Below are positions 2,578 through 18,428 of a stretch of DNA of 34,554 nt, piece after piece. The stretch covers positions 1 through 34,554 of the forward strand of contig JAJPHM010000044.1 of assembly GCA_021325295.1 (NCBI GenBank), written 5' to 3'. The translations under genes and the position numbers were made by a program. This DNA is from Nitrososphaeraceae archaeon. GTDB lineage: Archaea > Thermoproteota > Nitrososphaeria > Nitrososphaerales > Nitrososphaeraceae. The notes below the pieces were generated by a model that had not been told where the DNA came from, did no database searches, and saw only the letters and a list, made by a program, of their open reading frames with translations. Position 1 is the first letter of the stretch. Every line of letters starts with the position of its first letter.

Positions 2578-2617
2578 ATGCTAGTTGATTTATGCAAAGT
2601 CTATCCAGAAGCGCTTA

Positions 2618-3310
2618 ATGGCCGAAAATAAAAGGTTCAGAATAGGAGCCAAAAGACGAGGAATTATAGGCATTGAGGCAGCTATCGTTTTGATAGCGTT
2701 TGTTATCGTAGCTGCTGCCCTATCGTTCGTTGTTCTTAACATGGGCTTCTCTACAACACAGAAAGCAAAGACAACAATCGGATCAGGACTGCAAACATCA
2801 AGTAGCGTCGTATCAGTGTCAGGCACAGTGGTAGGACACCTAAACTCTACAGCAGCCGCACTCGACGTTATAACATATCCGCTGAAGGTCGCATCGGGTA
2901 GCGAGTCAGTGGATCTTGAGAAAAGTGCTGTGGCAATCAAGTATCTGTCCCATACGATCTCATACGACAACATCTACAACGGCACTCTAAGCGACAAATC
3001 CTATGGATCACTCTCAGCCGCACTAGCTCAAGCAAAGACCAATGGTCTCATCGACCAAAACCCACTTGCAACTTCAGGCGCCAAGAATCCATCAAAGACA
3101 GTAGCTATTATCTACTGGAGCACAAACACAAACAACAACAATGTTTTGGACAAATCTGAAACAGCAGTACTTGCAATAGTCTTCCAGAACAGCGATATGC
3201 CAAAGGCACTTGATGAGGTCACAACAGAGGTTACGCCAAGCATTGGTGCACCATTGACTGTGACAAGAGACATCCCAACACTGACAGATTCGTTCCAAGA
3301 CTTGACTTAA
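2618..3310 (+). CDS. arlB: Archaellin (archaellum filament protein)
   Basis: Starting at the ATG at 2618, the product has 230 residues. It opens with a class III (type IV prepilin-like) signal peptide of 15 residues ending K-R-R-G, followed by the hydrophobic helix IIGIEAAIVLIAFVIVAAAL that forms the filament core. A prepilin peptidase (ArlK/PibD type, not in this window) would cut after Gly15. The C-terminal part is a Ser/Thr/Asn-rich beta domain with N-X-S/T sites (NST, NGT) that could be glycosylated. An in-frame TTG at 2585 would add 11 residues before the signal peptide and is less likely. Only one archaellin gene is present here, whereas many archaea carry several in tandem. It is the first gene of the archaellum operon, followed after 15 bases by the next gene. 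Confidence 0.92.
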   Translation: MAENKRFRIGAKRRGIIGIEAAIVLIAFVIVAAALSFVVLNMGFSTTQKAKTTIGSGLQTSSSVVSVSGTVVGHLNSTAAALDVITYPLKVASGSESVDLEKSAVAIKYLSHTISYDNIYNGTLSDKSYGSLSAALAQAKTNGLIDQNPLATSGAKNPSKTVAIIYWSTNTNNNNVLDKSETAVLAIVFQNSDMPKALDEVTTEVTPSIGAPLTVTRDIPTLTDSFQDLT

Positions 3311-3325
3311 TCGAGGTGCATTTTA

Positions 3326-3745
3326 ATGAACCTCACCCCCTTTTCTTTTTTTCAAGGCTCAACTAAGGTACGTGTAGGTATTGCAGCCGGAGGTTCAGCT
3401 GCGTATTACGGATGGTTGTATTTCTCTTCTCCCAGTACGATTACTAGATTAATCAATATCAATTTCAGTGCATCAGATCCTCTGTCATCGATCAGAGGAC
3501 TGGATCCATTATTGTATATCCCACCTGTTATGATTGCAGGCGGCTTTTCAGCTTTGCACTTGCTATCTAAAAGAAAGTTCTTGCAAGGTCAAAAGCCAGC
3601 AAAAAGTAATCAAGGTGATGCAGATGTAACGACCGGCAAGGTATTATCATCTGGAATTTCTGCTCGCCTCACTGGTGGATTGATAAAGAAACTTTTTTTT
3701 TTCAACGTGGCCAGTCGCAAATTTCTGGAGAATCTAACAATATGA
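3326..3745 (+). CDS. Small membrane protein of the archaellum operon, unknown family
   Basis: The gene encodes 139 residues and is preceded by a Shine-Dalgarno-like GAGGTG. The protein has two predicted hydrophobic segments, near residues 17-33 (VGIAAGGSAAYYGWLYF) and 60-78 (LLYIPPVMIAGGFSALHLL), followed by a basic cytoplasmic-type tail. I recognise no family. Its stop overlaps the next start as ATGA (3742-3745), so translation of the arlCDE-like gene is probably coupled to it. Crenarchaea carry a membrane protein, ArlX, at this place in the operon, as an anchor with a soluble helical part. Here a small membrane protein plus a soluble ArlCDE-like protein might share that job, but that is inference. 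A run of ten T near the 3' end makes the reading frame vulnerable to slippage. Confidence 0.75.
   Translation: MNLTPFSFFQGSTKVRVGIAAGGSAAYYGWLYFSSPSTITRLININFSASDPLSSIRGLDPLLYIPPVMIAGGFSALHLLSKRKFLQGQKPAKSNQGDADVTTGKVLSSGISARLTGGLIKKLFFFNVASRKFLENLTI
3693..3702 (+). repeat. T10 homopolymer inside the small archaellum membrane-protein gene
   Basis: Ten consecutive T encode the KKLFFFN stretch, 14 codons before the stop. Slippage by one base would change the last residues and move the stop away from the coupled ATGA junction. Confidence 0.8.
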
Positions 3746-4803
3746 GCAAGAAGACAAGTCCTGCACCCGCTGGCGAGCCAGCTGTTGTGCCACAACAAAA
3801 TGAGCAAAAGAAAGATGACATAAGCCAGGTACAGCCGACAGCTCAGGGCAATCTGACTGCAATAACCGATCTAATAGAGAAGAAAACGACCGTGGTAACA
3901 GAAGAGGTAACGATACTCAAGAAAGAAATTGAGTCTTTTAAGGATAACATTGAACAGATAAAATCAGAGCTAAAGCAGGCGACATCTACCTTCGAGTCTT
4001 CACTGGTTGAGCTCAAATCGTTTCAGGCAGAGATGATAAATCCCATAAACTTCATGAGAAAATACATAGAGACACTTGAGATAAAGAATCTGTCCGATCC
4101 TGCCAATACACTAAAGCCGGTAGAGAATTTAGCCAACATAAGTAATAATCCATCTAAATCGGCAGCATCGGGTACTGCCATTGCACAGACTCACGAAGAA
4201 GCCCAGAATTATCAAAACAGGGAGTCGGGTATCAAGCAATTTACTGCAGATCATCGCCAGCCATCTGCAAAACAGAGTAGAACGTTTGTGGAAGACGATG
4301 ACGACAGCAATGGCAATTTCTCATCAGAAAAATATCAAGACTATCAAATGGAAGCTAGACCTGTTTCACATACAATGGCACGTAAAAATATAATGCCTCT
4401 ACAGAGACAAGCTACCAACAATCTTGGACAACACAGCCAGATGATAGCAGAGTCAGTCAGACTTCTTACACCAGGAAAAATAATGTCAATCGTTTCCATG
4501 GTAGATGAGATTCTGGCAACAATGGGGCCCGACGGTATTGAGCTTATTGTGGAGCAGTACAGGGCACTTGGTATGAAGCCAGAAGAGGAGAGGCTCATCT
4601 ACGGTGTTCTTCGAATGCTAAATGAAACAAAGTTACTGACTGATGATATCATTGCAATGTTTTATCGGTTCGGCCAAGTCCTTGGAATAAACGATGAAGA
4701 AGCGGAGCTTCAATACATGAAACTGATTGCCAGCAGAAGAACCGGTAGTAGAAAAAGCAATCCTGCAAACGGCAGGAAAAACCCGGTTGATGGAGACAGG
4801 TGA
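3742..4803 (+). CDS. ArlC/D/E-like archaellum motor accessory protein
   Basis: The product is a soluble 353-residue protein with no membrane segment. It starts with a Pro/Gln-rich segment, then a coiled coil (about residues 35-115, many Lys/Glu/Ile heptads), a polar probably disordered stretch (about 130-225) rich in Asn, Ser and Gln, and a helical C-terminal domain (about 240-330) containing LTPGKIMSIVSMVDEIL, EEERLIYGVLRMLNETKLLT and GINDEEAELQYM. In euryarchaea ArlC, D and E are cytosolic proteins that form the ring under the motor and receive the chemotaxis signal. A single protein with coiled coil plus C-terminal domain at this operon position fits a merged ArlCDE. The identification relies on context and architecture more than on a strong motif. 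It is translated in coupling with the preceding membrane protein. Confidence 0.7.
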   Translation: MSKKTSPAPAGEPAVVPQQNEQKKDDISQVQPTAQGNLTAITDLIEKKTTVVTEEVTILKKEIESFKDNIEQIKSELKQATSTFESSLVELKSFQAEMINPINFMRKYIETLEIKNLSDPANTLKPVENLANISNNPSKSAASGTAIAQTHEEAQNYQNRESGIKQFTADHRQPSAKQSRTFVEDDDDSNGNFSSEKYQDYQMEARPVSHTMARKNIMPLQRQATNNLGQHSQMIAESVRLLTPGKIMSIVSMVDEILATMGPDGIELIVEQYRALGMKPEEERLIYGVLRMLNETKLLTDDIIAMFYRFGQVLGINDEEAELQYMKLIASRRTGSRKSNPANGRKNPVDGDR

Positions 4804-4813
4804 ATAATTCACA

Positions 4814-5299
4814 ATGGGCTCATTTATGATAAGCGAAGGCATTGTCCTGATTGCGGCAGTGATCATTGCAGCTGGATTCTCTGTTGTAGTTCTTAACCAA
4901 ATGGGAATCTTTCAATCGACATTTAGCACTGCGTCTTCAGCTGAAAGAGATATTGCTCTGACAAAAATTAAGACAGTGTATGCGACCAACACCTCATCAT
5001 CAGAAGTTGAGGTATGGGTCAAAAATGTTGGCTCGAATCAAATAACTTCGTTAGACAAAATGGACGTGTACTTTGGAAAACTATCGAGCTTGCAACTTAT
5101 TCCCTATGTTGCATCTGGATCTACTAGCCCTTCATGGAACTATACCAATACAGGGTCCTCTAGTACTGTCTGGCAGATGACTGATACTCTTCAAATCAAG
5201 ATTGCATGCGGATGCACAATCACACCAAACGTCTCATATGGAATAACAATCGCGACGCCAAATGGAGTTAGTGATGATTATGTATTCTCGGTATCATAG
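4814..5299 (+). CDS. arlG: Archaellum stator protein ArlG
   Basis: This 161-residue protein has one N-terminal membrane helix (ISEGIVLIAAVIIAAGFSVVVL cut short here, about residues 6-27) without a prepilin cleavage site, followed by an extracytoplasmic beta domain with the ArlF/G-type pattern VEVWVKNVGSNQI. ArlG forms filaments capped by ArlF and links the rotating motor to the S-layer as part of the stator. A Cys pair (IACGCTI, near residue 136) is an odd detail that could make a vicinal disulfide or bind metal. It follows the arlCDE-like gene after ten bases. The split between G and F is made by order (G before F, as in Sulfolobales) and by the SEGIV start typical of ArlG. Confidence 0.8.
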   Translation: MGSFMISEGIVLIAAVIIAAGFSVVVLNQMGIFQSTFSTASSAERDIALTKIKTVYATNTSSSEVEVWVKNVGSNQITSLDKMDVYFGKLSSLQLIPYVASGSTSPSWNYTNTGSSSTVWQMTDTLQIKIACGCTITPNVSYGITIATPNGVSDDYVFSVS

Positions 5300-5332
5300 T
5301 AATATGTACAACCAAGGAGAGACCGACAAGAG

Positions 5333-5881
5333 ATGGGAATAGCTGCAGCTCTATCTGGCGGCATAATTATGATGATGGCAGTTATCGTGTTTGGGATATC
5401 TCTTCCGACGATGGTTAGTGCCAACGAAAAATTGAATCGAATTTCACGAGATGAAATGGATATGCACGATTCTATTGAAAAAACCAGTATAGCGATCTCT
5501 TCCATACAAGCAAATTTAGTTAGTAATACAATTCAGTTAACTGTTCAGAATACAGGACTTACAAAACTCTATGATTATTCGAAATTCACTATATTAGTCA
5601 CATATAACGGCAGCTCAAGCAACAATATTCTCAATGGCAATGCGGTCACACAAGTAACAGAGCAATTTACCTACGCAGGGATATCATCTAACACACCTTC
5701 AAATGGTCATTGGGTCATATCGACTTTCGTAAATGATGCCGTAGATCCACAAATCCTCAATCCTGGAGAATCGATGCAAATAACATGCAAACCAAGTGAG
5801 TTTATCCAACAAGGCAACATAATAGCAATTGTTTCAACAGACAATGGCGTGATATCCACCAGCAGTATAGGAGTAGTGTAA
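5333..5881 (+). CDS. arlF: Archaellum stator protein ArlF
   Basis: The 182-residue product opens MGIAAALSGGIIMMMAVIVF, a single membrane helix typical of ArlF, followed by a helical stalk and an Ig-like beta domain exposed outside (pattern QLTVQNTGLTKLYDYSKFTIL). In Sulfolobus, ArlF binds the S-layer and anchors the archaellum stator. A Shine-Dalgarno-like AAGGAGA lies upstream (about 5314-5320). It sits between arlG and arlH, four bases before the arlH start. ArlF and ArlG are related, so the two names could be swapped; the N-terminal pattern and order favour this assignment. Confidence 0.8.
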   Translation: MGIAAALSGGIIMMMAVIVFGISLPTMVSANEKLNRISRDEMDMHDSIEKTSIAISSIQANLVSNTIQLTVQNTGLTKLYDYSKFTILVTYNGSSSNNILNGNAVTQVTEQFTYAGISSNTPSNGHWVISTFVNDAVDPQILNPGESMQITCKPSEFIQQGNIIAIVSTDNGVISTSSIGVV

Positions 5882-5885
5882 GCAG

Positions 5886-6593
5886 ATGGTATTGGAATCA
5901 ATATCTACATCCAACGAGGAAGTCGATAGACAGCTTGGTGGAGGGCTTCCTATTCCATCTCTCATTTTAATTGAAGGAGAGCACGGAACTGGCAAGAGTT
6001 CAATGGTTGCACAGTTCATTAGGGGTTTGCTGAATGGAAACAAGAAGGTACTTTTTATAACTACCGAGAGCGGGATAAAAGAATACATTGAAAAGATGAA
6101 AATGATCACATATGATTTCAGGCGCGACTTTCTTCAAAATAGGCTGTCAATCTTACCTGTAAATGTAGATGGATTATCGTGGTCCCCCAAGCAATCCAAA
6201 TTACTGTTACCTGTAATAGGAAGATTCATCAGCGTAAATTCCAAGAAGGCAGAGGTAACGGTAATTGATTCTCTTTCCGCCCTGACTTTGTATTCAGATT
6301 CAAATACAATCTTGGATTTTTTTACAAAATGCAAGAATTTCGTTTCCAAAGGTATGACAGTGATAATCACGATGCACCCAAAAGCAGTACCGGAAGATGT
6401 GGCAATGAGAATAAGGTCAAGTTGTGACGGCTACATGCGAATAACCCCTACTACAATCGCAGGCAGAAGTGTAAAGGTAATGGAAGTAGTAAAGCTCATT
6501 GGGTCTTCTTCGCAGGTAAGTTCACAATTTAGCTTCGATGTCGACCAATCTTTTGGAATAAAGATAGTGCCTCTGTCAATGGCAAATGCATAG
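5886..6593 (+). CDS. arlH: Archaellum motor regulatory ATPase ArlH (KaiC-like)
   Basis: The protein has 235 residues and a RecA/KaiC fold. The Walker A motif GEHGTGKSS lies near residues 31-39 and the Walker B strand VTVIDSLSAL near residue 125. ArlH binds nucleotide, forms a ring with ArlI below the membrane platform ArlJ, and is thought to switch the motor between assembly and rotation. The Walker A lysine is present. The ORF begins four bases after arlF. The length is normal for the family. It is clearly distinct from free-standing KaiC-like proteins by its operon position and single ATPase domain. Confidence 0.9.
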   Translation: MVLESISTSNEEVDRQLGGGLPIPSLILIEGEHGTGKSSMVAQFIRGLLNGNKKVLFITTESGIKEYIEKMKMITYDFRRDFLQNRLSILPVNVDGLSWSPKQSKLLLPVIGRFISVNSKKAEVTVIDSLSALTLYSDSNTILDFFTKCKNFVSKGMTVIITMHPKAVPEDVAMRIRSSCDGYMRITPTTIAGRSVKVMEVVKLIGSSSQVSSQFSFDVDQSFGIKIVPLSMANA

Positions 6594-6598
6594 AATAG

Positions 6599-6703
6599 AT
6601 GGGAGAGATAAAAAAATTGAACAAAATTTCCAAACATCCCTCGTATGGCTTTTGGCTAAACGATGTGCTCATGCAACCTTGCAGGAGGAATAGCAGATGC
6701 TGA
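6599..6703 (+). CDS. Possible 34-codon micro-ORF between arlH and arlJ
   Basis: In an otherwise tight operon about 100 bases separate arlH from arlJ. An ATG at 6599 opens a basic 34-residue frame (MGEIKKLNKISKHPSYG and on to a Cys-Arg-rich end) whose stop lies just inside the arlJ start. No clear Shine-Dalgarno site precedes it. It may act only as a translational coupler for arlJ, or be chance. Confidence 0.3.
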   Translation: MGEIKKLNKISKHPSYGFWLNDVLMQPCRRNSRC

Positions 6704-8259
6704 GAAGTAAAAAATCAAAAGAAGCAGACATGATAGGAGTTGTATCTGCAGATATCAGCGGAAAATCAAAAAAGACTGCACTTCCAAGGCAAGTAGACGA
6801 AACAATCGTCTATTTTGCGCTGTTTTTATTGGGAATTTCTACCGGCCAGATCCAGCCCACAGATCTGATAAAGACCGCCGGTGCTGCCAAGCAATATGGT
6901 TACTATTCTGAGATCTTTTCAAAAATAAATCTCCTAGGAGTCAAGTGGCAGTATGGATTAGCAAGGGCATGTGAAATGATTTCATCAGAAGTAAAGGACG
7001 GCGAGTTTAAGTTATTGTTAATGAAATTGGCGCAGGTGCTTAGGCTTGGCGAAGACCTGCGAGTGTTCTTTGAGCAGGAATCGCAAGCCGTCATGAACGG
7101 ATACATTGCAGCGTACGAAAGATCAATGAGGTCTATGGACATGCTTCTCGAAATGTATTCAACTATGATGTCGACGTCATCGTTTCTTGTAGCATCCATG
7201 GCGCTTCTTACAATGATCTCAGGAGGAGGTAATGCCTCGCAAATGGTGATAACTGTTACAATAGCAATCACAATTGGGCTTGCAGCCTTCATGTTTATGG
7301 CATACTACTTCTTTCCAAAAGACCGGATTATGGTAAAGAGCGGAAATCCAGAAGTTGCAAAAATAAAGAAAATGGTAATCATGTCATTGGGATCTGGAGC
7401 AGGCATCGGTGCTGTCTTATTCTTGCTTAATGTACTGCCGACGCCAATAATAATCTCGATAGCTGGTGGACCGTTGATTGTCCCCGGTCTACTTGCCCGA
7501 AAGTTAGATGCAAAGGTCAGAAAGTTAGACGATTACTATCCGGCATTTGTCAGACACATCGGAGATGTCTATTCTACCGTCGGCTCGCTCGGCCAATCCT
7601 TAAAATCAGTCCTCAGAAGCGATTTTGGAATTCTATCAAAGTATATCGAAGCAACTGCAAATAGAGTGATGAGCAGAATAGGAATTCAGGATGCGTTTGA
7701 TTTATTTTCACAGGATACTGGCAGCATATTGATTTCTTCAGGCAATACCGCTATTGCAAACGCCATGATGAAGGGCGCAGACATGCTTGCAGTAGGATCA
7801 AAGTTGTCAGATATTACTACAAAGTTCCTTGAAATCAGACGGAAGAGATTGCAGACTGCAAAGGCATTCGAGTCTACAATCATGATAATGCATGTATTAA
7901 CACTGGCAGTCTTTAGCCTAATTAACAGACTGCTTCATTTTCTTGCACAATTCTTTGACATGCAGAAAACAGTAGGTGAAAATGCTGGAAACTTTATTGC
8001 ATTCAGTCCAGGCGATCCTGCATTGATGGGCAGCATTCTTGCTGTACTGGCAATAGTCCTATCAGCGATAAATGCCATGGCATTAAAGGTCTCCCAAGGG
8101 GGGCTTTTCCACACTATCTGGTTTAACATGGCCATACTGCTTATCGCAGGAGGAATAGTAGTATTTGCAGTGGATGCATTTCTGGACAATATGATAGGGG
8201 GCATTCTCAACATTTCACAGCTTGTTCAGACGACATCTTCAGGAGCGGGAAACAGCTAG
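6697..8259 (+). CDS. arlJ: Archaellum membrane platform protein ArlJ
   Basis: The 520-residue protein belongs to the TadC/GspF-type platform family. A soluble N-terminal domain (about residues 1-150, including a LAQVLRLGEDLRVFFEQE helix) precedes two hydrophobic hairpins near residues 165-205 and 225-265. A second soluble domain follows (YYPAFVRHIGDVYSTVGSL, about 285), then further membrane segments near 395-415 and 445-505. ArlJ is the only polytopic core component and couples the ArlI ATPase to the filament. A strong GGAGGA lies eight bases before the ATG. Here arlJ precedes arlI, the reverse of the usual H-I-J order. Its stop is 16 bases before the arlI start. Confidence 0.9.
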   Translation: MLRSKKSKEADMIGVVSADISGKSKKTALPRQVDETIVYFALFLLGISTGQIQPTDLIKTAGAAKQYGYYSEIFSKINLLGVKWQYGLARACEMISSEVKDGEFKLLLMKLAQVLRLGEDLRVFFEQESQAVMNGYIAAYERSMRSMDMLLEMYSTMMSTSSFLVASMALLTMISGGGNASQMVITVTIAITIGLAAFMFMAYYFFPKDRIMVKSGNPEVAKIKKMVIMSLGSGAGIGAVLFLLNVLPTPIIISIAGGPLIVPGLLARKLDAKVRKLDDYYPAFVRHIGDVYSTVGSLGQSLKSVLRSDFGILSKYIEATANRVMSRIGIQDAFDLFSQDTGSILISSGNTAIANAMMKGADMLAVGSKLSDITTKFLEIRRKRLQTAKAFESTIMIMHVLTLAVFSLINRLLHFLAQFFDMQKTVGENAGNFIAFSPGDPALMGSILAVLAIVLSAINAMALKVSQGGLFHTIWFNMAILLIAGGIVVFAVDAFLDNMIGGILNISQLVQTTSSGAGNS

Positions 8260-8275
8260 AAGATAGGTGGAAGAG

Positions 8276-9964
8276 ATGGCAGAGCAGATTACCCAGTCAA
8301 ATGAAAAGAACGCTGCTATAGATCAGAAACTTGCAGAAGCTATGCAAAAGACCCCGTATCTTGGAGACTATATATCAGCCTTTATTCAACGTGGAAATCC
8401 ACCTCCAACATTCTATGAGAAGATTGACTCTAGTCTCAAGAATCTGAAGAAGCCGAACTTGGTATATCCAATAAGTGAAAATACGTTCATTCATATCAAT
8501 GCCTTTGCATCAGATAATGATGGATACTTTGAGTATCAGGTAATAGGGCCACCAGAGCCGGATGGCAGGCTGATTTCTGCGGTAGATAAAATGTTCGCTG
8601 TTTACGCAGGATCTTGGAAGCCACCAGACGAACTTCAAGAAAGGTTCGCCCTGGTAGGCAACTTTTTGGAAAAAATATGTGTCAAATCAAACAGTCCTGT
8701 ATCGTATGACAAGATCGATATAAAGAAGGCCAAGCAGATTGCAGTATACGAGAAGGATTATGAAAATCTCAAGTACCATTTCCTAAACAAACGTGTAGGA
8801 TTGGGTATACTGGATCCTTTCCTTACAGATCCACATCTTGAGGATATATCCATTGTTGGTGCAGGCAATGTATATGTCGTCCATAAAATATTTGGATCTC
8901 TGAAATGCACTGTCTGGCTTACCTTTGACGATATAGATGAGATGGTGATAGGCATGTCGGAGCAGTTCGGCAAGACTATCTCTCATGCAAAGCCACTTGT
9001 TGATGCGACGCTGCCAGAAGGCTCCAGAATCAACATAGTGTTTGGAAAGGATGTAAGCAAACGCGGAACAAATGCGACCATTAGAAGATTTGCAAGCGTG
9101 CCATTATCGATCACACAGATCATTAACTCCAAAACTCTGGATGCCCGTGAAGCGGCATATCTGTGGATGGTAGTGGGAGAGGGGTTGAGTGCATTCATAA
9201 ACGGAGAAACAGCGTCAGGTAAGACCACTACAATGATGGGCATAACATCATTTATCCCCCCTACCTGGAAGGTCGTAAGCATAGAAGATACTCCAGAGAT
9301 TACGCTTCCTCACAAGAACTGGATAAGTGAAGTTACGAGGGATACAGGGAGCCCATCGTCCAGTGTTTTGATGTTTGACCTGCTCAAAGCTGCATTAAGA
9401 CAGAGGCCTAACTACATATTGGTAGGCGAGATCAGGGGTGCCGAAGCCAACATTGCTTTCCAGGCAATGCAAACCGGTCACCCTGTCATGAGCACTTTCC
9501 ATGCAGCGCAAATGTCGTCTCTTATTCAGAGGCTGACTGGCGAGCCAATGAAAATTCCAAAGCCAAACATTGAGAATCTGAATGTCGCGCTATTCCAAGC
9601 GGCAGTTCAAGGAAAGGATGGCAAGCCGATTAGACGAGTCCTGTCCATTAATGAAATTGTGGGCTATAACGGCATTGCAGACTCTGTAATGTTTATCCCT
9701 GTCTTTACCTGGGATCCTTCAAGTGACACTGTAACATATAGAGGCAAAGGCAGCAGCAACCTGTTTCTCACAAAGATTCTCCTGAAGAGGGGTCTTGCAA
9801 GAAAGGACGAGGGAAGCCTATACGAAGAACTTGAGTTGCGCACAAAGATCTTGGAACTGATGATAAAGAAAAAGATATTCAATTACTATGATGTCTATGA
9901 TCGTGTAGTACAGGCCAAGGAAATTGGCCTAGCGGCGTTCAAAAAGGAACTTGAGACACTATAG
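8276..9964 (+). CDS. arlI: Archaellum assembly and rotation ATPase ArlI
   Basis: This is a type II/IV secretion-type ATPase of 562 residues. An N-terminal domain precedes the hexamerising core with Walker A GETASGKTT (near residues 310-318), the Asp box around VVSIEDTPEI, Walker B YILVGEIRG (near 380) and a His box (TGHPVMSTFHA). ArlI hydrolyses ATP both to export/assemble archaellin and to rotate the filament. I chose the ATG at 8276 because GGTGGA sits six bases upstream; a GTG three codons earlier is the alternative. Its stop TAG is followed directly by the reversed stop of cheR, leaving no space for a terminator between the two operons. Confidence 0.93.
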   Translation: MAEQITQSNEKNAAIDQKLAEAMQKTPYLGDYISAFIQRGNPPPTFYEKIDSSLKNLKKPNLVYPISENTFIHINAFASDNDGYFEYQVIGPPEPDGRLISAVDKMFAVYAGSWKPPDELQERFALVGNFLEKICVKSNSPVSYDKIDIKKAKQIAVYEKDYENLKYHFLNKRVGLGILDPFLTDPHLEDISIVGAGNVYVVHKIFGSLKCTVWLTFDDIDEMVIGMSEQFGKTISHAKPLVDATLPEGSRINIVFGKDVSKRGTNATIRRFASVPLSITQIINSKTLDAREAAYLWMVVGEGLSAFINGETASGKTTTMMGITSFIPPTWKVVSIEDTPEITLPHKNWISEVTRDTGSPSSSVLMFDLLKAALRQRPNYILVGEIRGAEANIAFQAMQTGHPVMSTFHAAQMSSLIQRLTGEPMKIPKPNIENLNVALFQAAVQGKDGKPIRRVLSINEIVGYNGIADSVMFIPVFTWDPSSDTVTYRGKGSSNLFLTKILLKRGLARKDEGSLYEELELRTKILELMIKKKIFNYYDVYDRVVQAKEIGLAAFKKELETL

Positions 9965-10837
9965 CTAGGCTTTCTGGTAGATTCTCTCTCTAAGATAGAT
10001 TGACCTGAACTTGCCAAGCAATTTGCCCATCAACACTTCTGATTGGCCGATCGCAAGGTAGCCATGTGGTTTTAGAGCTTTATGGAACTTGTCGATTAGT
10101 TTTTCTCGACTTTCTCTATCAAAATATATCATTACATTTCTGCACAGTATCATATCAAAGTCTGTCGCTGGAGGTTCTGTCTTGGTAAGATCTGCTACAT
10201 GGAAATCAACAGACTTTCTGATATCTTCGCTAACTTGGTAGAACCGTGCGGTACTAGAATGGGGGACTTTAGGCGATACTCTTTGAAAATACCTTGACAG
10301 CAGATTCTGTGTTACATTTTTGAGACTAGTTTCTTCATAAATCCCTTCTTGCGAGATACCTATAGAACTAGAATTAATGTCAGTTGCAAATATGCCAAGC
10401 CTGCAGGAAGACAAGTTCATGGCATTTTGATCAGCATTTAACAATTCCCTGACAAGAATGGCAATGCTGTAAGGTTCTTCGCCTGTAGCACTGCCAGCGC
10501 ACCAGATTTTTATTTCGGGCGTCTGTGAACCAGTCAGACGACAATTATCAATTATCGAAGGAAGTATATTGATCCTGAGCCGCTCGAAGAATGACGGGTC
10601 TCTGAAGAATTCGGTTACTGTGATCGAAAATGACGAAATCAACTCTGTAAATTCATTCGGATCTTTTGACAGCAGCTCAGCATACTTTTGATAATTCGGT
10701 ATTTTTCGCAATCGCATTCTGTGCTCTAATCGCCTTCGTATGAATGGAACCCTGTATTTCTGCAACCCTTGCTCAAAGAGTTTGTTCAAAATTGCGAATA
10801 GATACGGATCTTCAATGGTTTCTTGTTTCAGAGTCAC
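9965..10837 (-). CDS. cheR: Chemotaxis protein methyltransferase CheR
   Basis: The 290-residue product has the CheR layout: an N-terminal helical domain (about residues 1-80) with RRRLEHRMRLRKI, and a SAM-binding domain with EIKIWCAGSATGEEPYSIAI and the MILCRNVMIYFD motif. CheR methylates glutamates of receptors in adaptation. The start is a GTG overlapping the CheD stop as GTGA, so it is the last gene of the chemotaxis operon and probably translated by coupling. The only receptor of the operon with a full signalling hairpin is the soluble MCP encoded upstream, so that protein is the likely substrate. Confidence 0.92.
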   Translation of the reverse strand: MTLKQETIEDPYLFAILNKLFEQGLQKYRVPFIRRRLEHRMRLRKIPNYQKYAELLSKDPNEFTELISSFSITVTEFFRDPSFFERLRINILPSIIDNCRLTGSQTPEIKIWCAGSATGEEPYSIAILVRELLNADQNAMNLSSCRLGIFATDINSSSIGISQEGIYEETSLKNVTQNLLSRYFQRVSPKVPHSSTARFYQVSEDIRKSVDFHVADLTKTEPPATDFDMILCRNVMIYFDRESREKLIDKFHKALKPHGYLAIGQSEVLMGKLLGKFRSIYLRERIYQKA

Positions 10838-11364
10838 AGGATTATGTCCTTGCTCCCTTTCTTTCTTACAATAACCTGTCCAGTATTTACGTCAAGTCTT
10901 ACCCATCTGCCTTGAGCAGAACCCACGTCCTGTCCTAAGACTGGTATCTTTCGCGATTCGAGCAATAGCTTGATTTGCTGCAAATTGCGCTGGCCAATAT
11001 CGAAAAATACATCTTCACGTTTGTTTTCATTTGAAAACATTCTTGCCCCGCCTGCGATCTTGGAAGCCACTCGAGTAAGATTGGCGCCTCTACCTATCAT
11101 TTCGTCAATAAGTATGTTGAGCGCATGATCTCCGTACTTTGCTTGGTAATCATGTTCAGGAGGAGACTTGCCTTGACTGTCTGGAAGCATTATATGCGCC
11201 AAACCGCCAATTTTTTTGACAGGATCGTGGATACAGAGTGCGATGCATGATCCAACAAAGGTTGTCAGCATTGCATTTGATGAGTCAGTAACGTGCAGCG
11301 AACCCATCTTGACCTCTATCTCTGTTATCCCTCTCTGTCCTATCAAATCGGTTCTATTCTCCAT
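10834..11364 (-). CDS. cheD: Chemoreceptor glutamine deamidase CheD
   Basis: The 176-residue protein carries the CheD Cys-His pair: Cys in the FVGSCIALCIHDP motif and His in GGLAHIMLP, with conserved KIAGGARMF and GRNL-like segments. CheD deamidates receptor glutamines and, in Bacillus and archaea, binds CheC. I prefer the ATG at 11364 (MENRTDL) over 11382 because it overlaps the CheC gene by only 11 bases. It lies between cheC and cheR in an overlapping series, which fits stoichiometric synthesis of a CheC-CheD pair. Confidence 0.9.
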   Translation of the reverse strand: MENRTDLIGQRGITEIEVKMGSLHVTDSSNAMLTTFVGSCIALCIHDPVKKIGGLAHIMLPDSQGKSPPEHDYQAKYGDHALNILIDEMIGRGANLTRVASKIAGGARMFSNENKREDVFFDIGQRNLQQIKLLLESRKIPVLGQDVGSAQGRWVRLDVNTGQVIVRKKGSKDIIL

Positions 11365-12007
11365 TTGATTTATTGGCATCAAATGACATTGCTAGCTTTA
11401 GGGCATCGGTTATGCCGATAAAAATCAAAATCTTTATTCTTATACCTGATGCCTCCCCAATAAACTGGGCTTCTGCGATTATCATTTGGTCTTCTTGGGA
11501 TGAGATATCTCCTATGGGAAACTCGATAATCCCCTTGAGATTATCCATTGCAAATCCAGGAGTTGAACAGGTCAGCCTGAAACCCGTATTCTTTGAGATG
11601 GCGTTAAGAAATGAACCGGCGAACAAAATATTTCCTACTTCTGAAATAGAAGACCTTCCAAGACCATCTATTTCTTTTATATTGTCATTTCCAAGCAGTC
11701 GTCTGGCAAGCTGTCTTGCTTCGTCATAGGTGAGAAACATCATCATACCTGCAGTAATGTCACCTCCTGATTTCAGATATACCGCACACACTTCCCCGCT
11801 AAAAATACCGACTAACTGATCCAAGAATTGCGGCTTTGCTTCATTGAGCCTTCCAAATGAGTATTGATATTCTTCGCCAGTAAGCATTTCAAGTGACCTG
11901 GATGTTCCCGCCACTATATGGGATATAGTATTTCGGAGCTTTTCCAAGCTGGACTCAGAAATCTTTGGATTTGGAAGCTTGCTGCTATTCTTTATTGATA
12001 TTTCCAT
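11354..12007 (-). CDS. cheC: CheY-P phosphatase CheC
   Basis: The 217-residue protein belongs to the CheC/FliY/CheX family. One phosphatase signature is visible, S-x3-E-x2-N in SSISEVGNILFAG (near residue 120) followed about 23 residues later by the expected Pro. The first-half site (around LRNTISHIVAGTSR) lacks the E-x2-N pair, so probably only one active site works. CheC removes phosphate from CheY and is stimulated by CheD. It is encoded between cheA and cheD, with six bases between it and cheA. FliY is unlikely, since there is no bacterial flagellar motor. Confidence 0.88.
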   Translation of the reverse strand: MEISIKNSSKLPNPKISESSLEKLRNTISHIVAGTSRSLEMLTGEEYQYSFGRLNEAKPQFLDQLVGIFSGEVCAVYLKSGGDITAGMMMFLTYDEARQLARRLLGNDNIKEIDGLGRSSISEVGNILFAGSFLNAISKNTGFRLTCSTPGFAMDNLKGIIEFPIGDISSQEDQMIIAEAQFIGEASGIRIKILIFIGITDALKLAMSFDANKSNGE

Positions 12008-12013
12008 CCCTTG

Positions 12014-13807
12014 TCATCTCATCTGAAGTTGCATCAGGTCAAGTATCAGCGCAACCTTTCCATCTGACAGAATTGTCGCATCTGACGGTACATTTGAAGA
12101 AAGGTCGTATCCCGTTTTATCAATATGCTTTATTACAATGTCTTGCTTGCTTTCAAACGAATCAACAATCATGCCAATGGGTTTGCCGGCCTTTTCAGCT
12201 ACTATAACCGTTAACTTGTTTGTGTTGTCACTTGTGCTGTTGTCAGTATTTATTTGAGCAGGTGACTTTTGTGTCTGAAGCACATCTGCAGCATGAACAA
12301 GAGGAATAACCTTGCTTCTGAATATGATTACAGGTCTGCCCTGAATTGTCTTTACCTGATTTTGATCGACTTGAATAGTTGCTAGAACATCGGATAGCGG
12401 TATAACATATTTTTCACTTCCAACTTTCACAAGCAAGCCTCCAATTATTGCTAGACTCAGAGGTATAGTCAAGGAGAAAGTGGTTCCAAGATTCTTTTCT
12501 GTCCTGATCTTTACGGTTCCTCCTACGGATTTAATTTTATCAATTACTACATTAACTCCTACTCCTCTGCCAGAGATATCTGTGACTTTCTGTGCTGTGG
12601 AGAGTCCAGACGTTCCTAACAGATCCATAATTTGCTCTGAAGACATGGCATCAGCATCTTGTCTGCTTATGATGCCTTTTTCTACCGCCTTCTCCTTGAC
12701 CTTATCTAGGTCTATACCTCTTCCATCATCTGAAACTTCTATCGAGACCTTATCTCCGACCCTGTGTGCCTTGAGCTTGATTGTGCCGGAACCGGGTTTG
12801 CCAAGAGCCTCTCTATCCTTTGGCATCTCTATTCCGTGATCTACTGCATTTCTTAGAATATGCAGCAGCGGGTCAGTTATTGCATCAAGGACAGTCCTGT
12901 CCAATTCTATACCTGTTCCTTCCATTTCCAGTCTCACTTCTTTTCCTTGATCTGCAGATATATCGCGTACCATTCTCGGGAAGCGGTCAAAAATTTGTTG
13001 GATAGGTACTAGCCTGATCTTCATTGTGTGGTTTTGGAGAGCATTTATCAGTCTCTCAAGATTTCTAAGCTCCTGTTTGTATTCCTTTAGATTGGAGTCC
13101 AAGACAACCTGTTCAAGTCGCATTCTTGCAATCATGATTTCCCCGACAAGGTCAACCAACGAGTCCAAGTCCTCCATTCTGACTTTTACTGATTGAGTAT
13201 TGATATGAGCAGATGTGTCAAGCCGGCCGCCATAGTTCGTAGAGGATTGAAACGATGGCTGAGTTGCAAAATTATTATCAGCCGATTGGGCCGCTGGGGA
13301 CTCCGGCCTTTGGTCGTATTGCTGATCGTTTTGATGTATAGATTCCTGATTATTGCTTGTCGTCTGTCCACTGGTTAGCGTCAGTGCAGCGTCAGGGGGC
13401 AGATTCTGTTTGCTTTCTGTCTTGTCTGATTCAGCTTCTGCAACTTTCGCAAATTCTTCTGTGAATTTTATCAAATCGACAGAACATTTCTCATCATTTA
13501 CCATCTTCTCCAAAAGGTCAAAAGAATAAAAGAAAAAGTCAGTAGACTGTGACATCAGACGAAGCTGTCCATTTCTAAATTTGTCAAATAAATCCTCTAT
13601 TGCTCTGCAAATCTGTCTGATCTGCTCATATCCCATAGTTGCAGCCATTCCCTTCAGCGTGTGGGCAGACCTGAATGCCGAGTCCAGACACTCTTTGTTT
13701 TCGGGGTTTTGTTCGAGTTGAAGCAGGGCCTGATTTAGATTCTGTATGTGCTCGTTGGCCTCTTGCACAAACATATCTCTGTACTTTGAAAGGTCATTAC
13801 CCGACAT
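12014..13807 (-). CDS. cheA: Chemotaxis histidine kinase CheA, apparently without P2
   Basis: The 597-residue product begins with an Hpt (P1) domain with phosphorylated His49 in the AFRSAHTLKGMA motif. A Gln/Asn/Ser-rich linker (about 135-205) follows, then the P3 dimerisation helices, the P4 ATPase with LRNAVDHGIE, DDGRGID and GRGVGVNVV boxes, and a C-terminal P5 CheW-like domain. No folded CheY/CheB-binding P2 domain is visible in the linker. CheA takes signals from receptors through CheW and phosphorylates CheY and CheB. The ATG at 13807 gives an 11-base overlap with cheB; an in-frame ATG at 13822 is the alternative. Confidence 0.93.
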   Translation of the reverse strand: MSGNDLSKYRDMFVQEANEHIQNLNQALLQLEQNPENKECLDSAFRSAHTLKGMAATMGYEQIRQICRAIEDLFDKFRNGQLRLMSQSTDFFFYSFDLLEKMVNDEKCSVDLIKFTEEFAKVAEAESDKTESKQNLPPDAALTLTSGQTTSNNQESIHQNDQQYDQRPESPAAQSADNNFATQPSFQSSTNYGGRLDTSAHINTQSVKVRMEDLDSLVDLVGEIMIARMRLEQVVLDSNLKEYKQELRNLERLINALQNHTMKIRLVPIQQIFDRFPRMVRDISADQGKEVRLEMEGTGIELDRTVLDAITDPLLHILRNAVDHGIEMPKDREALGKPGSGTIKLKAHRVGDKVSIEVSDDGRGIDLDKVKEKAVEKGIISRQDADAMSSEQIMDLLGTSGLSTAQKVTDISGRGVGVNVVIDKIKSVGGTVKIRTEKNLGTTFSLTIPLSLAIIGGLLVKVGSEKYVIPLSDVLATIQVDQNQVKTIQGRPVIIFRSKVIPLVHAADVLQTQKSPAQINTDNSTSDNTNKLTVIVAEKAGKPIGMIVDSFESKQDIVIKHIDKTGYDLSSNVPSDATILSDGKVALILDLMQLQMR

Positions 13808-14978
13808 AATGTTGCACCCCATTTTCTTGTTTCATTTCGTGAAAATTTTGTTTTTCCAATTCATTTACGTAGCGAATAATAGTCTGTCCTATCATTTCAG
13901 TCGGCAGCATCTCATCTACTGCACCAATATCATAAGCTGCCTTTGGCATGCCAAACACAGCAGATGTTGCCTGGTCTTGAGCAATGGTCTTGCCACCTCT
14001 CATTTTTATCATCTTCATACCAAACGCCCCATCCTGCCCCATTCCAGAAAGTAGCACTCCAATGGCGTTTGAACCAAAAACATCAGCTGCACTTAACATA
14101 GTAACATTTACAGAAGGTCTGACACCTTGTCTCTTGCCTGATTTATCCAGCTTTATCCTTCCTTCAGGCGTGAGTTTAACATGGTAGTCTCCTGGAGCTA
14201 TGTACGCTGTACCATATTCAAGCGGATCATTTTCTCTTGCTTCAGTCACTCTAATTTCTGAAATTTCGTCCAAGTGCCGTGCAAAGACCTTGGTGAATGG
14301 TGCGGGCATGTGTTGTACTATAATAATTGCAGCATGGAGACCCGGAGGAAGACTGGAGAATATTTCAGTAATTATTCGTGGTCCACCAGTTGAAGATCCA
14401 ATTATGATAACATTTCTTACTTTTGAAAAATGTAGATTTTGACTGTCCACATGACAGATTTCGATAACTTTCTTTCCTTTTCTTTTGGCAGGTATGAGCG
14501 TATGAGGATCGACTTTTGCGGCAGTTTCAATGGCGGATATTAGTTTCTCCTTTATCTGACCGGTTCTATCTGAATTATTCTCACCGCTATCTGTTGGGAC
14601 CAACGGAATTGGAATAAAGTCTAGTGCTCCCCTATCAAGACAATCAAATACTATGCTATTGCCGTCAAGTTTTCGGTCTGAAGGCGAAATACCCTCTCCA
14701 TAGCTGCTGACAACAATGATGGGTAATGGATTGCAACTAGCTATGACTCGTTCGATAAAGGTAATTCCATCAACATTTGGCATCTCCAAGTCAAGTAATA
14801 CCACGTCAGGCCTGATTAGACCAATTTTATCAATGGCCTCTTTACCATCACGTGCTGTCCCACACAACTCAAACTTGTCAATAGACCTGATAATATCTGA
14901 TAGGTATTCTCTTACTAATCGTGAATCATTGACAACCATGACTCTGATCCTTCTGTTCTCCAAGACCAAGTCGATCAT
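13797..14978 (-). CDS. cheB: Receptor methylesterase CheB
   Basis: This 393-residue response regulator has a receiver domain (about 10-125) with phospho-acceptor Asp63 in VVLLDLEMPN, a linker, and a methylesterase domain with catalytic Ser in GSSTGGPR, His in VQHMPAPF and Asp in GMGQDGAFG. One residue of the usual acidic pair at the receiver N-terminus is Asn (VVND instead of VVDD), a possible change in metal binding. CheB removes receptor methyl groups or deamidates them when phosphorylated by CheA. Start and stop overlap cheY (four bases) and cheA (11 bases). Confidence 0.92.
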   Translation of the reverse strand: MIDLVLENRRIRVMVVNDSRLVREYLSDIIRSIDKFELCGTARDGKEAIDKIGLIRPDVVLLDLEMPNVDGITFIERVIASCNPLPIIVVSSYGEGISPSDRKLDGNSIVFDCLDRGALDFIPIPLVPTDSGENNSDRTGQIKEKLISAIETAAKVDPHTLIPAKRKGKKVIEICHVDSQNLHFSKVRNVIIIGSSTGGPRIITEIFSSLPPGLHAAIIIVQHMPAPFTKVFARHLDEISEIRVTEARENDPLEYGTAYIAPGDYHVKLTPEGRIKLDKSGKRQGVRPSVNVTMLSAADVFGSNAIGVLLSGMGQDGAFGMKMIKMRGGKTIAQDQATSAVFGMPKAAYDIGAVDEMLPTEMIGQTIIRYVNELEKQNFHEMKQENGVQHYVG

Positions 14979-15361
14979 CTGCTCCGCAATAGTCTGTTTA
15001 TCACGGTAGCAACCATTCCACGGTCAAATGGTTTGACCACATAATCCTTAGCTCCAAGCTTTATTGCCTCCTGGACAGTATGCTTTTGTTCAACAGAAGT
15101 AACCATCACCACTTTAGCCCCTGGATTTATCTGTAAAATTATCTTAAGTGCTTGGATTCCATCTGTTCCTGGCATGTTGATATCCATGGTAATGATATCT
15201 GGCCGGTACTTCTGGTATGCATCTATGGCTGCCGCTCCATCCGATGCTTCGTAAATATTTTGGAATCCATTGGCGGCAAGAATGTCTTTAAGTACCGCCC
15301 TCATAAAGGAGGCATCATCAACTACCAGTACCTTGGCCGTACTTCTATCTAGTATGGACAT
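14975..15361 (-). CDS. cheY: Chemotaxis response regulator CheY
   Basis: The product is a single receiver domain of 128 residues with the acidic pair Asp15-Asp16 (VLVVDDASFMR), phospho-acceptor Asp60 (IITMDINMPG), a Thr in MVTSVEQ and Lys in VVKPFD, so all catalytic residues are present. I chose the ATG at 15361 because the longer frame (15412) would add 17 basic residues that lie wholly inside cheW. The result is a 17-base overlap with cheW. CheY-P would act on the archaellum motor; in euryarchaea this needs the adaptor CheF, which I do not find here. Confidence 0.93.
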   Translation of the reverse strand: MSILDRSTAKVLVVDDASFMRAVLKDILAANGFQNIYEASDGAAAIDAYQKYRPDIITMDINMPGTDGIQALKIILQINPGAKVVMVTSVEQKHTVQEAIKLGAKDYVVKPFDRGMVATVINRLLRSR

Positions 15362-16034
15362 CTGACTTTGGCTCCTGTATTTTCGCACTGCCTTTTGCTT
15401 CGACCATCTCATTTCCTGCAGTTCCGGCTGTTGTGTTGGAATCTGCTTTGCCGTTTAATGCGAAATTGAAATCCTTGCTGCCAACTGTCCCATCTTCTGC
15501 GCCATCCTTGTCCATTTCTAGTAAAAGTTCCAAGTCGATAATGACATACAACTCGTCGTTTTTCTTTACGATGCCTTTGATATATGGCGCCGTTTCGCAC
15601 AATACTGTTGGAGCAGGTTCAATATCAGACTGCGAGATTTGAGTGACTTCATCAACTCCGTCTACCAGTAGCCCGATGGTACTTTTTCTCACCTGAGCAA
15701 CAATTACCTTGTCATTACCGTCAGTATCATATCCTTTTGTAAGGTTACCGCCGGTTTTAAAACCTAGAAGTCTCTTTGTATCAATAAGCGTTATTATCTT
15801 GCCCCGCAGATTCATTACTCCAATTACGTGAGCAGGTGCGCCAGGAACCCGGGTAATGTTATCTTTAGAAGCTATTTCACGTACCTGTTCGACATTGACG
15901 CCATATGTCATTCCTTTTTTTGTGCTAACATCATAAATGGTGAATAAGACTATCTTGCAATTGCAGCCCTCCACTTTTGTTACAAATGATTTTTTGGGCG
16001 AATACTGGTGATCTGGATCTATTTGAGTAGTCAA
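15345..16034 (-). CDS. cheW: Chemotaxis coupling protein CheW with a long C-terminal tail
   Basis: The 229-residue protein has a CheW domain from about residue 25 to 172 ([44 protein letters not shown]). It bridges receptor tips and CheA. A polar tail of nearly 60 residues (about 172-229, rich in Gly, Asp, Lys, Thr) follows the domain and is predicted disordered, longer than in usual CheW proteins. The ATG overlaps the MCP stop by four bases. The tail overlaps cheY at the DNA level by only 17 bases, so it is not just a product of overlap. Confidence 0.92.
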
Positions 16035-17302
16035 GATTCGCTCTTTCCTCCGCTTTGGTCAGCAGTAAATGAATGAATTTGAGCATCCGAGACTACACTT
16101 TGCTGACCAAAGTGATCCTTTTGTTTTAATTGAGTAGAATCAGCGCTCTGCCTTTCTATTGTCGAGTAGCTTGGTGGCAGCTTGAATCCAGATAGCATTT
16201 CCTGCAATGATTTGCCGAGACCTTCGAAGGCATGGATAGCATTGGTTATCTCCTGCATGCTTGCGGCCTGCTCTTCTGTTGCAGCGGCACACTCCTCTGT
16301 CGCTGCTGCGTTTTCTTCTGCGACAGATGCGATGCCGGTAGCCCTTTTGCTTACTTCGGCTACGGCTGTCACCTGATTCTGTAGCAAAACATTTACCTCT
16401 TTTATTGTGTCATCCAAAGATTGAACTTTCTTTGCGATATCATTTAGCGCCATAAGGGCTTTGTTGATGATTATTTTGCCTTCCACAATTTCTTTCAGCC
16501 CCTGCTCTATGGTCAGAGCAGTTTGCTTGGCGTCCTGTTGAACTTTGCCAATGAGTATTTCTATTTCTTCAGAAGACTTGGATGAACCCTCTGCCAAGTC
16601 CTTAATTTCATCTGCCACCACTGCAAAGCCCTTTCCTGCCTCGCCTGCTCTGGCTGCCTCTATGGCCGCGTTTAGAGCCAGTAGATTTGTCTTTCTGGCA
16701 ATCTTCCTGATGACATCCAAAACAGAAGATATCTTGTCGCACTGAGCGGCCAGGCCCTGAATGTTCTCTGTGGAGGTATGGGAAACATTGATGATGCTTT
16801 CAATTTTTTCCTGCGCCTTAGTTGCAGATTTTGAGCCCAAGGCAGAGGCCTTCCCTACTGCAGTAGAAACAGCTGCAGTCTTGAGCATTTTGGAAGCAAG
16901 ACTTTTCATGCTCCCATTAAGATCCTCCGTAAGCTTGTTTATTGCGTCAATTTCCTCAGCCTGCTGCTGAGATCCCTTGGCTATCTGTTGAACTGTCATT
17001 GAGATTTGCTGTGCAGAAGTATTTAGTTGCTCTGTGGAACCTGCAAGCCCAGATGAGGAAAGAATTATGTCTCTTGATGCAGATCTTCCTCCAAAAATTA
17101 GTTCTCTAAAATTTGATATTACACTATCAAGATTCTTTTGCAGTTCACCAATTTCATCGTCAGACTTTTCAAAATCCAGTTCTTTACTGAGATCCCCTCT
17201 TTCCAACGCTTCAAGCAGTTCGCTAATCTGGGAAATCCTTTTGTAATTCGAATCTTTAATTGCTACTAACTTTTGGTGGTCGTCTTTTTCCGCCCTAGCC
17301 AA
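16031..17302 (-). CDS. Soluble methyl-accepting chemotaxis protein
   Basis: The product is a 423-residue receptor without membrane segments. Residues about 20-65 look like a HAMP-type unit ([33 protein letters not shown], cited in part). The methylation and signalling helices follow, with the conserved tip [20 protein letters not shown] and [14 protein letters not shown] near residues 205-240 and Glu/Gln/Ala-rich heptads ([20 protein letters not shown]) that are the likely CheR/CheB/CheD sites. No sensor domain is fused, so input must come from another protein, perhaps the Cache protein encoded just upstream. The only usable start in this frame is a TTG at 17302, ten codons after an in-frame stop; that start is uncertain. 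Gap to the upstream gene is seven bases. Confidence 0.88.
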
Positions 17303-17309
17303 TGCATTT

Positions 17310-18428
17310 TCAGCTCTGTCTTTTTTCTTCGTTTGTCAGCAGTTTCTGTATAAGAAGCGAGTGCCAGCCAGAAGAATATGTTTCGTATCCTGGTGAGAAT
17401 GCATGTGCGATACAGCATTCAGTGTTTTCATAATTTGTGATCATAAAGCCCTTCTTTTCTGCAAACAGAGACTCGCGGCCATAAAACTCAATATGACCTT
17501 CCAGTACTTTTTTGCGAGAATCTGCAAGCAACAAGCCGTCGTTGTCTACTATGCATATTCGCGTATTGGCCTTTTCTTCATCACTGATTGGAGTATTTTC
17601 AATTATTTTCTGGGCTAGAGCTTCCCAGTTGAAGATCACGCCAAGAACCCCGCATACTTTTCCCTCCTCGTTTAAAATAGCACTTGAAAATACAATGGCA
17701 AACTGGTTATTGACAAGTGAGCATCTATGAACAGACTGAAAACCAAATGAATTTTCCGAATTTGACTCAACTGCAGAGCGAAACCAAGCGGTTTCGATTT
17801 GGTTTTTGCCCACAGATGCATATTGATCAGGTTTGCCATTAGCTATGACATTACCTGACAGATCGCATAACACAAGGTCAAAGTATACTGTATATGAATC
17901 AAGTATGACTCCCAGTCTGCGCGAAGCATAATCAATACTGTCTTTGTTTTGGCCAGCGAGGGCATTCACAAGACTTGTGTCTTTTGCCCACCAACGTACA
18001 TCACATGAGCGTTCGTACAAACTTCTATCGATCAAGTCGATATTGGTAAGTGCCAGATCAGAAAGTCTTACGCCTCTAATACTTGTAATCTGCTTTTTGA
18101 TAATCTCCTTCATCTCTGCGATAGTACCAAGACTTTCATGTTTCAAATTTTCAGTAGTATCTTCGATTTTCTTGGATAGCTTGCTCATTTCTTCAGCTAC
18201 AACACTAAACGTCTTGCCTACTTCTCCAGCTCTGCTTGCCTCTATCAGAGCATTTATTGAAAGAACTTGAGTTTCACCATTTATACGCTCAATTTGATTT
18301 ATTGCAGATTCGGTCTTTTGAGCCAAAACCTCTGTTAATTCTGCTACTTTTTCTAGCGAAAATGTGGATTTGGTACTCTCACTATTCTGCATATCCTTAT
18401 GGTGCTGCTGTTGCTCCTGCAAGGTCAT
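17310..18428 (-). CDS. Cache-type sensor with a truncated receptor tip at its N-terminus
   Basis: The 372-residue protein has no membrane helix. Residues about 20-95 resemble a shortened MCP hairpin tip ([20 protein letters not shown], then [14 protein letters not shown]) with only a few heptads on each side and no Glu-Gln methylation pairs. Residues about 130-365 look like a double Cache/PDC sensor ([20 protein letters not shown] start, [42 protein letters not shown], and a [12 protein letters not shown] end). The order is the reverse of ordinary receptors, where Cache comes first and outside the membrane. It is the first gene of the chemotaxis operon, with a leaderless-type promoter. It probably joins CheA/CheW arrays with the soluble MCP, as an inference. 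Confidence 0.82.

Follow-up and report, generated by a model that had tools for sequence, protein, structure and literature searches.

The protein encoded at positions 17310–18428 on the minus strand of the window (the whole 34,554-nucleotide stretch of archaeal DNA analyzed here) appears to represent a family of permuted, adaptation-less cytosolic dCache chemoreceptors, which would control CheA together with a neighboring MCP in a soluble array. We assign this reading a probability of about 0.6. In this 372-residue protein, referred to here as tip-Cache and encoded by the first gene of a che operon, a short MCP signaling tip precedes a soluble dCache sensor. Since cytoplasmic receptors as a class are already well known (PMC3964821), with a share of 23.3% among the chemoreceptors retrieved in one survey (PMC7390727), what is new is the combination: the mini-tip, the tip-first order, the soluble dCache domain and the division of labor. 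In the literature covered on cytoplasmic Cache receptors, on sensors placed behind the hairpin and on chemotaxis of ammonia oxidizers, a coverage that was incomplete and did not include the main review (Collins 2014), we found no description of a tip-first dCache layout.

Domain organization of tip-Cache

A preliminary description of this DNA had proposed an MCP-like tip at about residues 20–95, followed by a Cache sensor, and both domains were recovered above their Pfam cut-offs. First, MCPsignal matched residues 26–98 (positions 18135–18353, minus strand; E-value 1.4e-12, 48.2 bits against a cut-off of 34.6), the match spanning only positions 31–94 of the 172 in the profile. Second, dCache_1 matched residues 147–347 (17388–17990, minus strand; E-value 1.1e-13, 51.7 bits against a cut-off of 45), an assignment that was also obtained by Foldseek. 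Among the aligned homologues, MCPsignal was detected in all 11 and dCache_1 in 10. Every significant match in a sequence search of the PDB was to an MCP tip and fell in the N-terminal part of the protein, and the rest of the Pfam and NCBIfam matches, considered as other family assignments, were either chance matches or matches to the MCP tip.

The protein was also expected to lack a membrane helix and methylation heptads. No membrane helix or membrane-like element was present in either the sequence or the AlphaFold model, a search for a hidden membrane helix or a signal peptide gave none, and a scan of the whole protein found no methylation consensus sites. Because methylation helices with consensus sites are absent and the profile is only partially covered, we filed tip-Cache as an MCP-tip protein and not as a full MCP, although it probably works like one. 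The usual, but not absolute, placing of dCache_1 outside the cell between two membrane helices does not apply to it. Three outcomes had been named in advance as speaking against the proposal (a hidden membrane helix, no MCPsignal or Cache match, and homologues that are never near chemotaxis genes), and none of them appeared.

Predicted structure and conserved positions

Structure prediction of the protein alone, one of the checks suggested earlier, yielded an unbroken tip-to-Cache helix and a dCache fold. The AlphaFold model, a monomer built from an alignment of 26 homologues (mean pLDDT 89), consisted of a helix at residues 25–67, a turn and a helix at residues 72–147, which together form a hairpin, and then two alpha/beta modules. 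The second helix (17988–18215, minus strand; block pLDDT about 86–97) was predicted to run as a single element from the second tip arm into Cache alpha-1, and each tip arm comprised approximately six heptads judging from sequence and prediction. When the model was compared with the PDB by Foldseek, the top matches were the solved dCache domains of DctB, Tlp3, PctA and CtaA, with a probability of 1.00 and an identity of 11–18% in most of these rows. The characteristic features of dCache_1, a long N-terminal helix and two PAS-like modules, were thus present according to both Pfam and Foldseek. The linker between tip and Cache had the same length in 38 of 54 sequences and differed by −5 to +4 residues in the other 16. 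This variation counts against the favored reading. A strict helical phase of this linker was considered as evidence for coiled-coil signaling and dropped, as some of the deviating lengths correspond to neither whole nor half heptads.

Counting residues over the family showed that the tip keeps the counterparts of Tsr N381, V384(I), E385, R388, F396 and V398, and that the tip residues are conserved in both archaea and bacteria. In the two alignments used (A1 and A2), N59 and G68 were invariant, and E63 and R66 were nearly so. The conservation table and the same alignments revealed a family-specific invariant stretch, RxLYERxxDVxWWAxD, at the end of Cache alpha-1 (R135–D150; 17979–18026, minus strand). 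Among the family-specific residues, those with the highest conservation (R121, R135, L137, E139, R140, D143, W146, W147, R171, I175, Y179 and Y182) gathered at this end of alpha-1 and in the following helix. Based on this pattern, we take the region to be a putative ligand site or signal relay, two roles that conservation does not separate. Amino-acid sensors of the dCache_1AA type have a conserved arginine two residues before the pocket tryptophan. In the rows checked in alignment A1, the corresponding position (two before W215) was T, S or E and not R. Amino acids are not favored as the ligand of tip-Cache because this residue, one position of the motif, looks absent.

The che operon and its soluble MCP

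The order of genes on the minus strand was tip-Cache, a soluble sensorless MCP, cheW, cheY, cheB, cheA, a cheC-like gene, cheD and cheR. The operon was compact, with 7 nt between tip-Cache and the MCP gene and a 4-nt overlap of cheW with the MCP stop. The MCP (423 residues; 16031–17302, minus strand) had a weak HAMP match at residues 21–64 and MCPsignal at residues 158–327. Apart from the weak HAMP, Pfam revealed no sensor domain in it, and no hydrophobic segment was found; the earlier view of the next gene as a sensorless soluble MCP therefore held. A consensus scan identified three clustered methylation sites in its C-terminal arm (residues 325–348; 16259–16330, minus strand) and one site in its N-terminal arm. 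The remaining genes, all on the minus strand, were cheW (15345–16034), the sole stand-alone CheW of the genome; cheY (14975–15412), with a receiver domain; cheB (13797–14978); cheA (12014–13822), with Hpt, H-kinase_dim, HATPase and CheW domains; the cheC-like gene (11354–12007), whose CheC score of 20.4 bits lies under the curated cut-off of 22; cheD (10834–11382); and cheR (9965–10837). An archaellum gene cluster occupied positions 2585–9964 on the plus strand, containing the genes for archaellin, the KaiC-like FlaH and the T2SSE ATPase FlaI, and their neighbors.

Throughout the source genome (G000; 2.69 Mb, 99.7% complete), tip-Cache and the soluble MCP were the only two MCPsignal proteins, and CheW domains occurred only in cheW and cheA. 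The chemotaxis system of this motile ammonia-oxidizing archaeon seems to have no membrane receptor. Loss of a receptor in an assembly gap was considered, and both the completeness of the assembly (99.7% in 79 contigs) and a second genome argue against it: G011, which belongs to the same family and is closed in a single contig, likewise encodes just two MCPsignal proteins, a soluble MCP (395 residues) and tip-Cache, separated by 6 nt.

Generality of the pairing among archaea

To place these observations in a wider context, we surveyed 398 sampled genomes from the phylum, 50 of which contained CheA and 24 tip-Cache. Of the 26 genomes in the archaeon's order that have CheA, 24 carried tip-Cache; it was absent from all 24 CheA-positive genomes of the sample outside this order and from every CheA-negative one. 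Thus, the link of tip-Cache to the Che system is general among the relatives of this archaeon. The two CheA-positive genomes of the order without it were G341 and G394. G341 is a 98% complete ammonia oxidizer whose sole MCPsignal protein is a sensorless membrane-stub MCP (L147); therefore, tip-Cache is not strictly required and the pair is not obligatory.

On the other hand, the pairing with a soluble MCP is local and not general. Only G000 and G011 showed a soluble sensorless partner. In 13 of 26 archaeal genomes, a classical MCP was located no more than 1.5 kb from tip-Cache. Five genomes (G147, G238, G318, G353 and G095) contained a membrane-stub MCP with two hydrophobic segments close together, those scanned having HAMP and MCPsignal only. 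G025 and G031 encoded a membrane dCache MCP, and in both the interval from tip-Cache to cheW contained no soluble MCP. Members of genus g20 had one membrane-stub MCP and one membrane dCache MCP, those of genus g36 mostly a soluble MCP with a C-terminal PAS domain, and some relatives paired tip-Cache with several MCPs. In seven genomes, tip-Cache is the only recognizable sensor joined to an MCP tip. Five soluble archaeal MCPs (L152, L154, L155, L156 and L158) had their signaling hairpin near residues 160–168, and the two scanned (L152 and L155) had a C-terminal PAS domain, which is another sensor-behind-tip layout.

The preliminary description had regarded the two neighboring proteins as a two-part receptor and suggested counting how often their genes are adjacent elsewhere. 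For G000, the idea fits and is plausible, strengthened by the count of two receptors: both MCPsignal proteins of the genome lie in one operon, and methylation consensus sites occur in the MCP alone. It does not extend beyond G000 and G011 as far as the soluble partner is concerned. The same adjacent pair was found in G011, but not in G025, G031 or most others, and in bacteria the majority of copies are remote from che genes.

It is also conceivable, though we regard it as unlikely, that tip-Cache is a modulator or decoy, whose mini-tip would compete for CheW and CheA or cap arrays, ligand binding to Cache freeing or hiding the tip. The tip is indeed far shorter than that of receptors with a known role in controlling CheA, one tip is altered in the fused proteins described below, and an add-on regulator would be sensible in the many bacterial hosts that already have full receptor sets (several CheW copies each). 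Against this reading, no other recognizable sensor carries an MCP tip in G000 and G011, and tip residues are conserved across phyla.

Bacterial homologues

Full-length homologues were found in alpha- and betaproteobacteria (some on plasmids), Kuenenia, Nitrospira, Methylacidiphilum and others, where public records label them only as 'methyl-accepting chemotaxis protein'; the bacterial counts are lower bounds, since most of the 80 loci from the wide genome scan were ordinary MCP tips. CheW domains were present in all 23 bacterial carrier genomes checked. Most bacterial copies had no Che relative within approximately 6 kb when compared with the Che proteins of this archaeon; exceptions near CheW genes included Nitrospira and a second copy in Azospirillum. 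Among the bacterial rows of the tree, the Kuenenia copy, which is 49–50% identical, came closest to the archaeal sequences. It is flanked by a histidine kinase and a receiver protein (L053:3014-10973), and an ORF that by eye resembles an ammonium transporter follows after about 2.5 kb. Two copies on Methylobacterium plasmids (L023 and L024) were directly upstream of EAL or GGDEF genes. In addition, contigs of Opitutia and Planctomycetaceae (L075:2569-7866 and L077:1711-7695) contained divergent double-Cache proteins of 719–786 residues directly after CheA-CheW, the tip of which was degenerate and not detected by Pfam.

Such neighbors in Kuenenia and on the Methylobacterium plasmids, together with the many bacterial copies that are orphans, could suggest that Cache senses for another output, such as c-di-GMP or two-component signaling, and that its position in the archaeal che operon is a lineage-specific coincidence. 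We consider this improbable, and less likely than a modulator, given how closely its presence follows that of CheA within the archaeal order, the presence of CheW in every bacterial carrier tested and the fact that the MCP tip is the only output domain of the protein.

Tandem copies and fusion in genus g36

Six g36 genomes (G154, G190, G214, G244, G295 and G357) encoded two tip-Cache units in one ORF of 710–723 residues (among L040–L051), and in the two such ORFs scanned by Pfam both MCPsignal and dCache_1 were detected twice. In G095 (L046), two separate tip-Cache genes stood side by side. In the tree, the first halves of the fused proteins were joined by copy a of G095 (SH-aLRT 98) and their second halves by copy b (SH-aLRT 92), which indicates that tandem duplication preceded fusion; the arrangement in G095 likely represents the earlier stage. 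In all five fused proteins aligned, the tip asparagine was lost from the first half, which counts against the favored reading, and the second half keeps it. A single chain with two tips would be expected of a dimeric working unit, and the grouping of the G095 copies with the two halves agrees with this.

The lost asparagine, together with the lack of an adaptation region, HAMP and membrane anchor, might also be read as the mark of a receptor in decay, a truncated MCP that is being lost, but this is very hard to reconcile with full-length copies in archaea and several bacterial phyla that share the same domain order and invariant tip and Cache residues.

Discussion

We favor a chemoreceptor in which an N-terminal mini MCP hairpin continues, in the predicted structure, through its second arm as one helix into alpha-1 of a soluble dCache domain. 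As for ligand, docking and array membership, which we infer, the protein would act as a dimer whose Cache domain binds a small molecule in the cytoplasm, and binding would displace the alpha-1 helices and, with them, the tip, which would sit with CheW, CheA and the neighboring sensorless MCP in a soluble array and alter CheA activity. CheR, CheB and CheD would act on the MCP only, so that adaptation would be supplied in trans. Extracellular Cache domains signal only via a C-terminal membrane helix, and the usual Cache receptors are principally extracellular (Upadhyay 2016, PMC4822843). In tip-Cache, the C-terminus of Cache is the end of the protein, and only the N-terminal helix can carry the signal.

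The sensor fold is common to tip-Cache, the transmembrane dCache_1 receptors PctA, Tlp3 and CtaA and DctB-type sensors, and the MCP hairpin is common to tip-Cache and the transmembrane dCache_1 chemoreceptors. In contrast with these receptors, the sensor of tip-Cache is cytoplasmic and C-terminal to the tip, and membrane helices, HAMP and a methylation region are missing. TlpD of Helicobacter pylori, a CZB protein, is similar to tip-Cache in being soluble with its sensor behind the signaling hairpin; however, TlpD has a full-length signaling bundle and a zinc-binding CZB domain, where tip-Cache has a mini-tip and dCache. In the cytoplasmic cluster of Rhodobacter sphaeroides, TlpT is adapted and TlpC has no obvious adaptation sites (PMC6829392). 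This resembles the pair in G000, with two receptors, one of them adapted, in a soluble array, which for G000 is a putative one. R. sphaeroides differs in having a membrane array alongside, and neither TlpT nor TlpC is described as a tip-Cache protein in that report. MtpA of Methylobacterium aquaticum is a cytosolic receptor without a membrane region, for which only the MCP signal domain was reported (PMC10613068); we compared it by description only, and the genus Methylobacterium also carries tip-Cache genes. Finally, an engineered single-chain Tsr~Tsr works, and natural soluble single-chain MCP signaling domains have been mentioned (PMC4692393). They provide a precedent for the fused tip-Cache-tip-Cache proteins of g36, although they join full MCP signaling domains and, as described in that paper, none of them carries a Cache sensor.

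A broader and more tentative proposal, to which we give somewhat less than even odds, is that the whole chemotaxis input of this archaeon would be a split cytosolic receptor: an unmethylatable sensing unit and a non-sensing adapting unit, with the tips as their only link, in a soluble array of CheA and CheW. The family of sensing units would be widespread and tip-first, would signal through the N-terminal helix of Cache, and would have become a single-chain dimer by duplication and fusion in one archaeal genus.

If this is true, sensing and adaptation would be divided between two small, soluble proteins in a system where almost every component is present as a single copy, and the old question of whether unlike receptors lend adaptation to each other would become testable with a minimal set of proteins. 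A Cache domain would signal from the cytoplasm via its N-terminal helix, and motile ammonia oxidizers would derive their sense of direction from inside the cell and not from outside.
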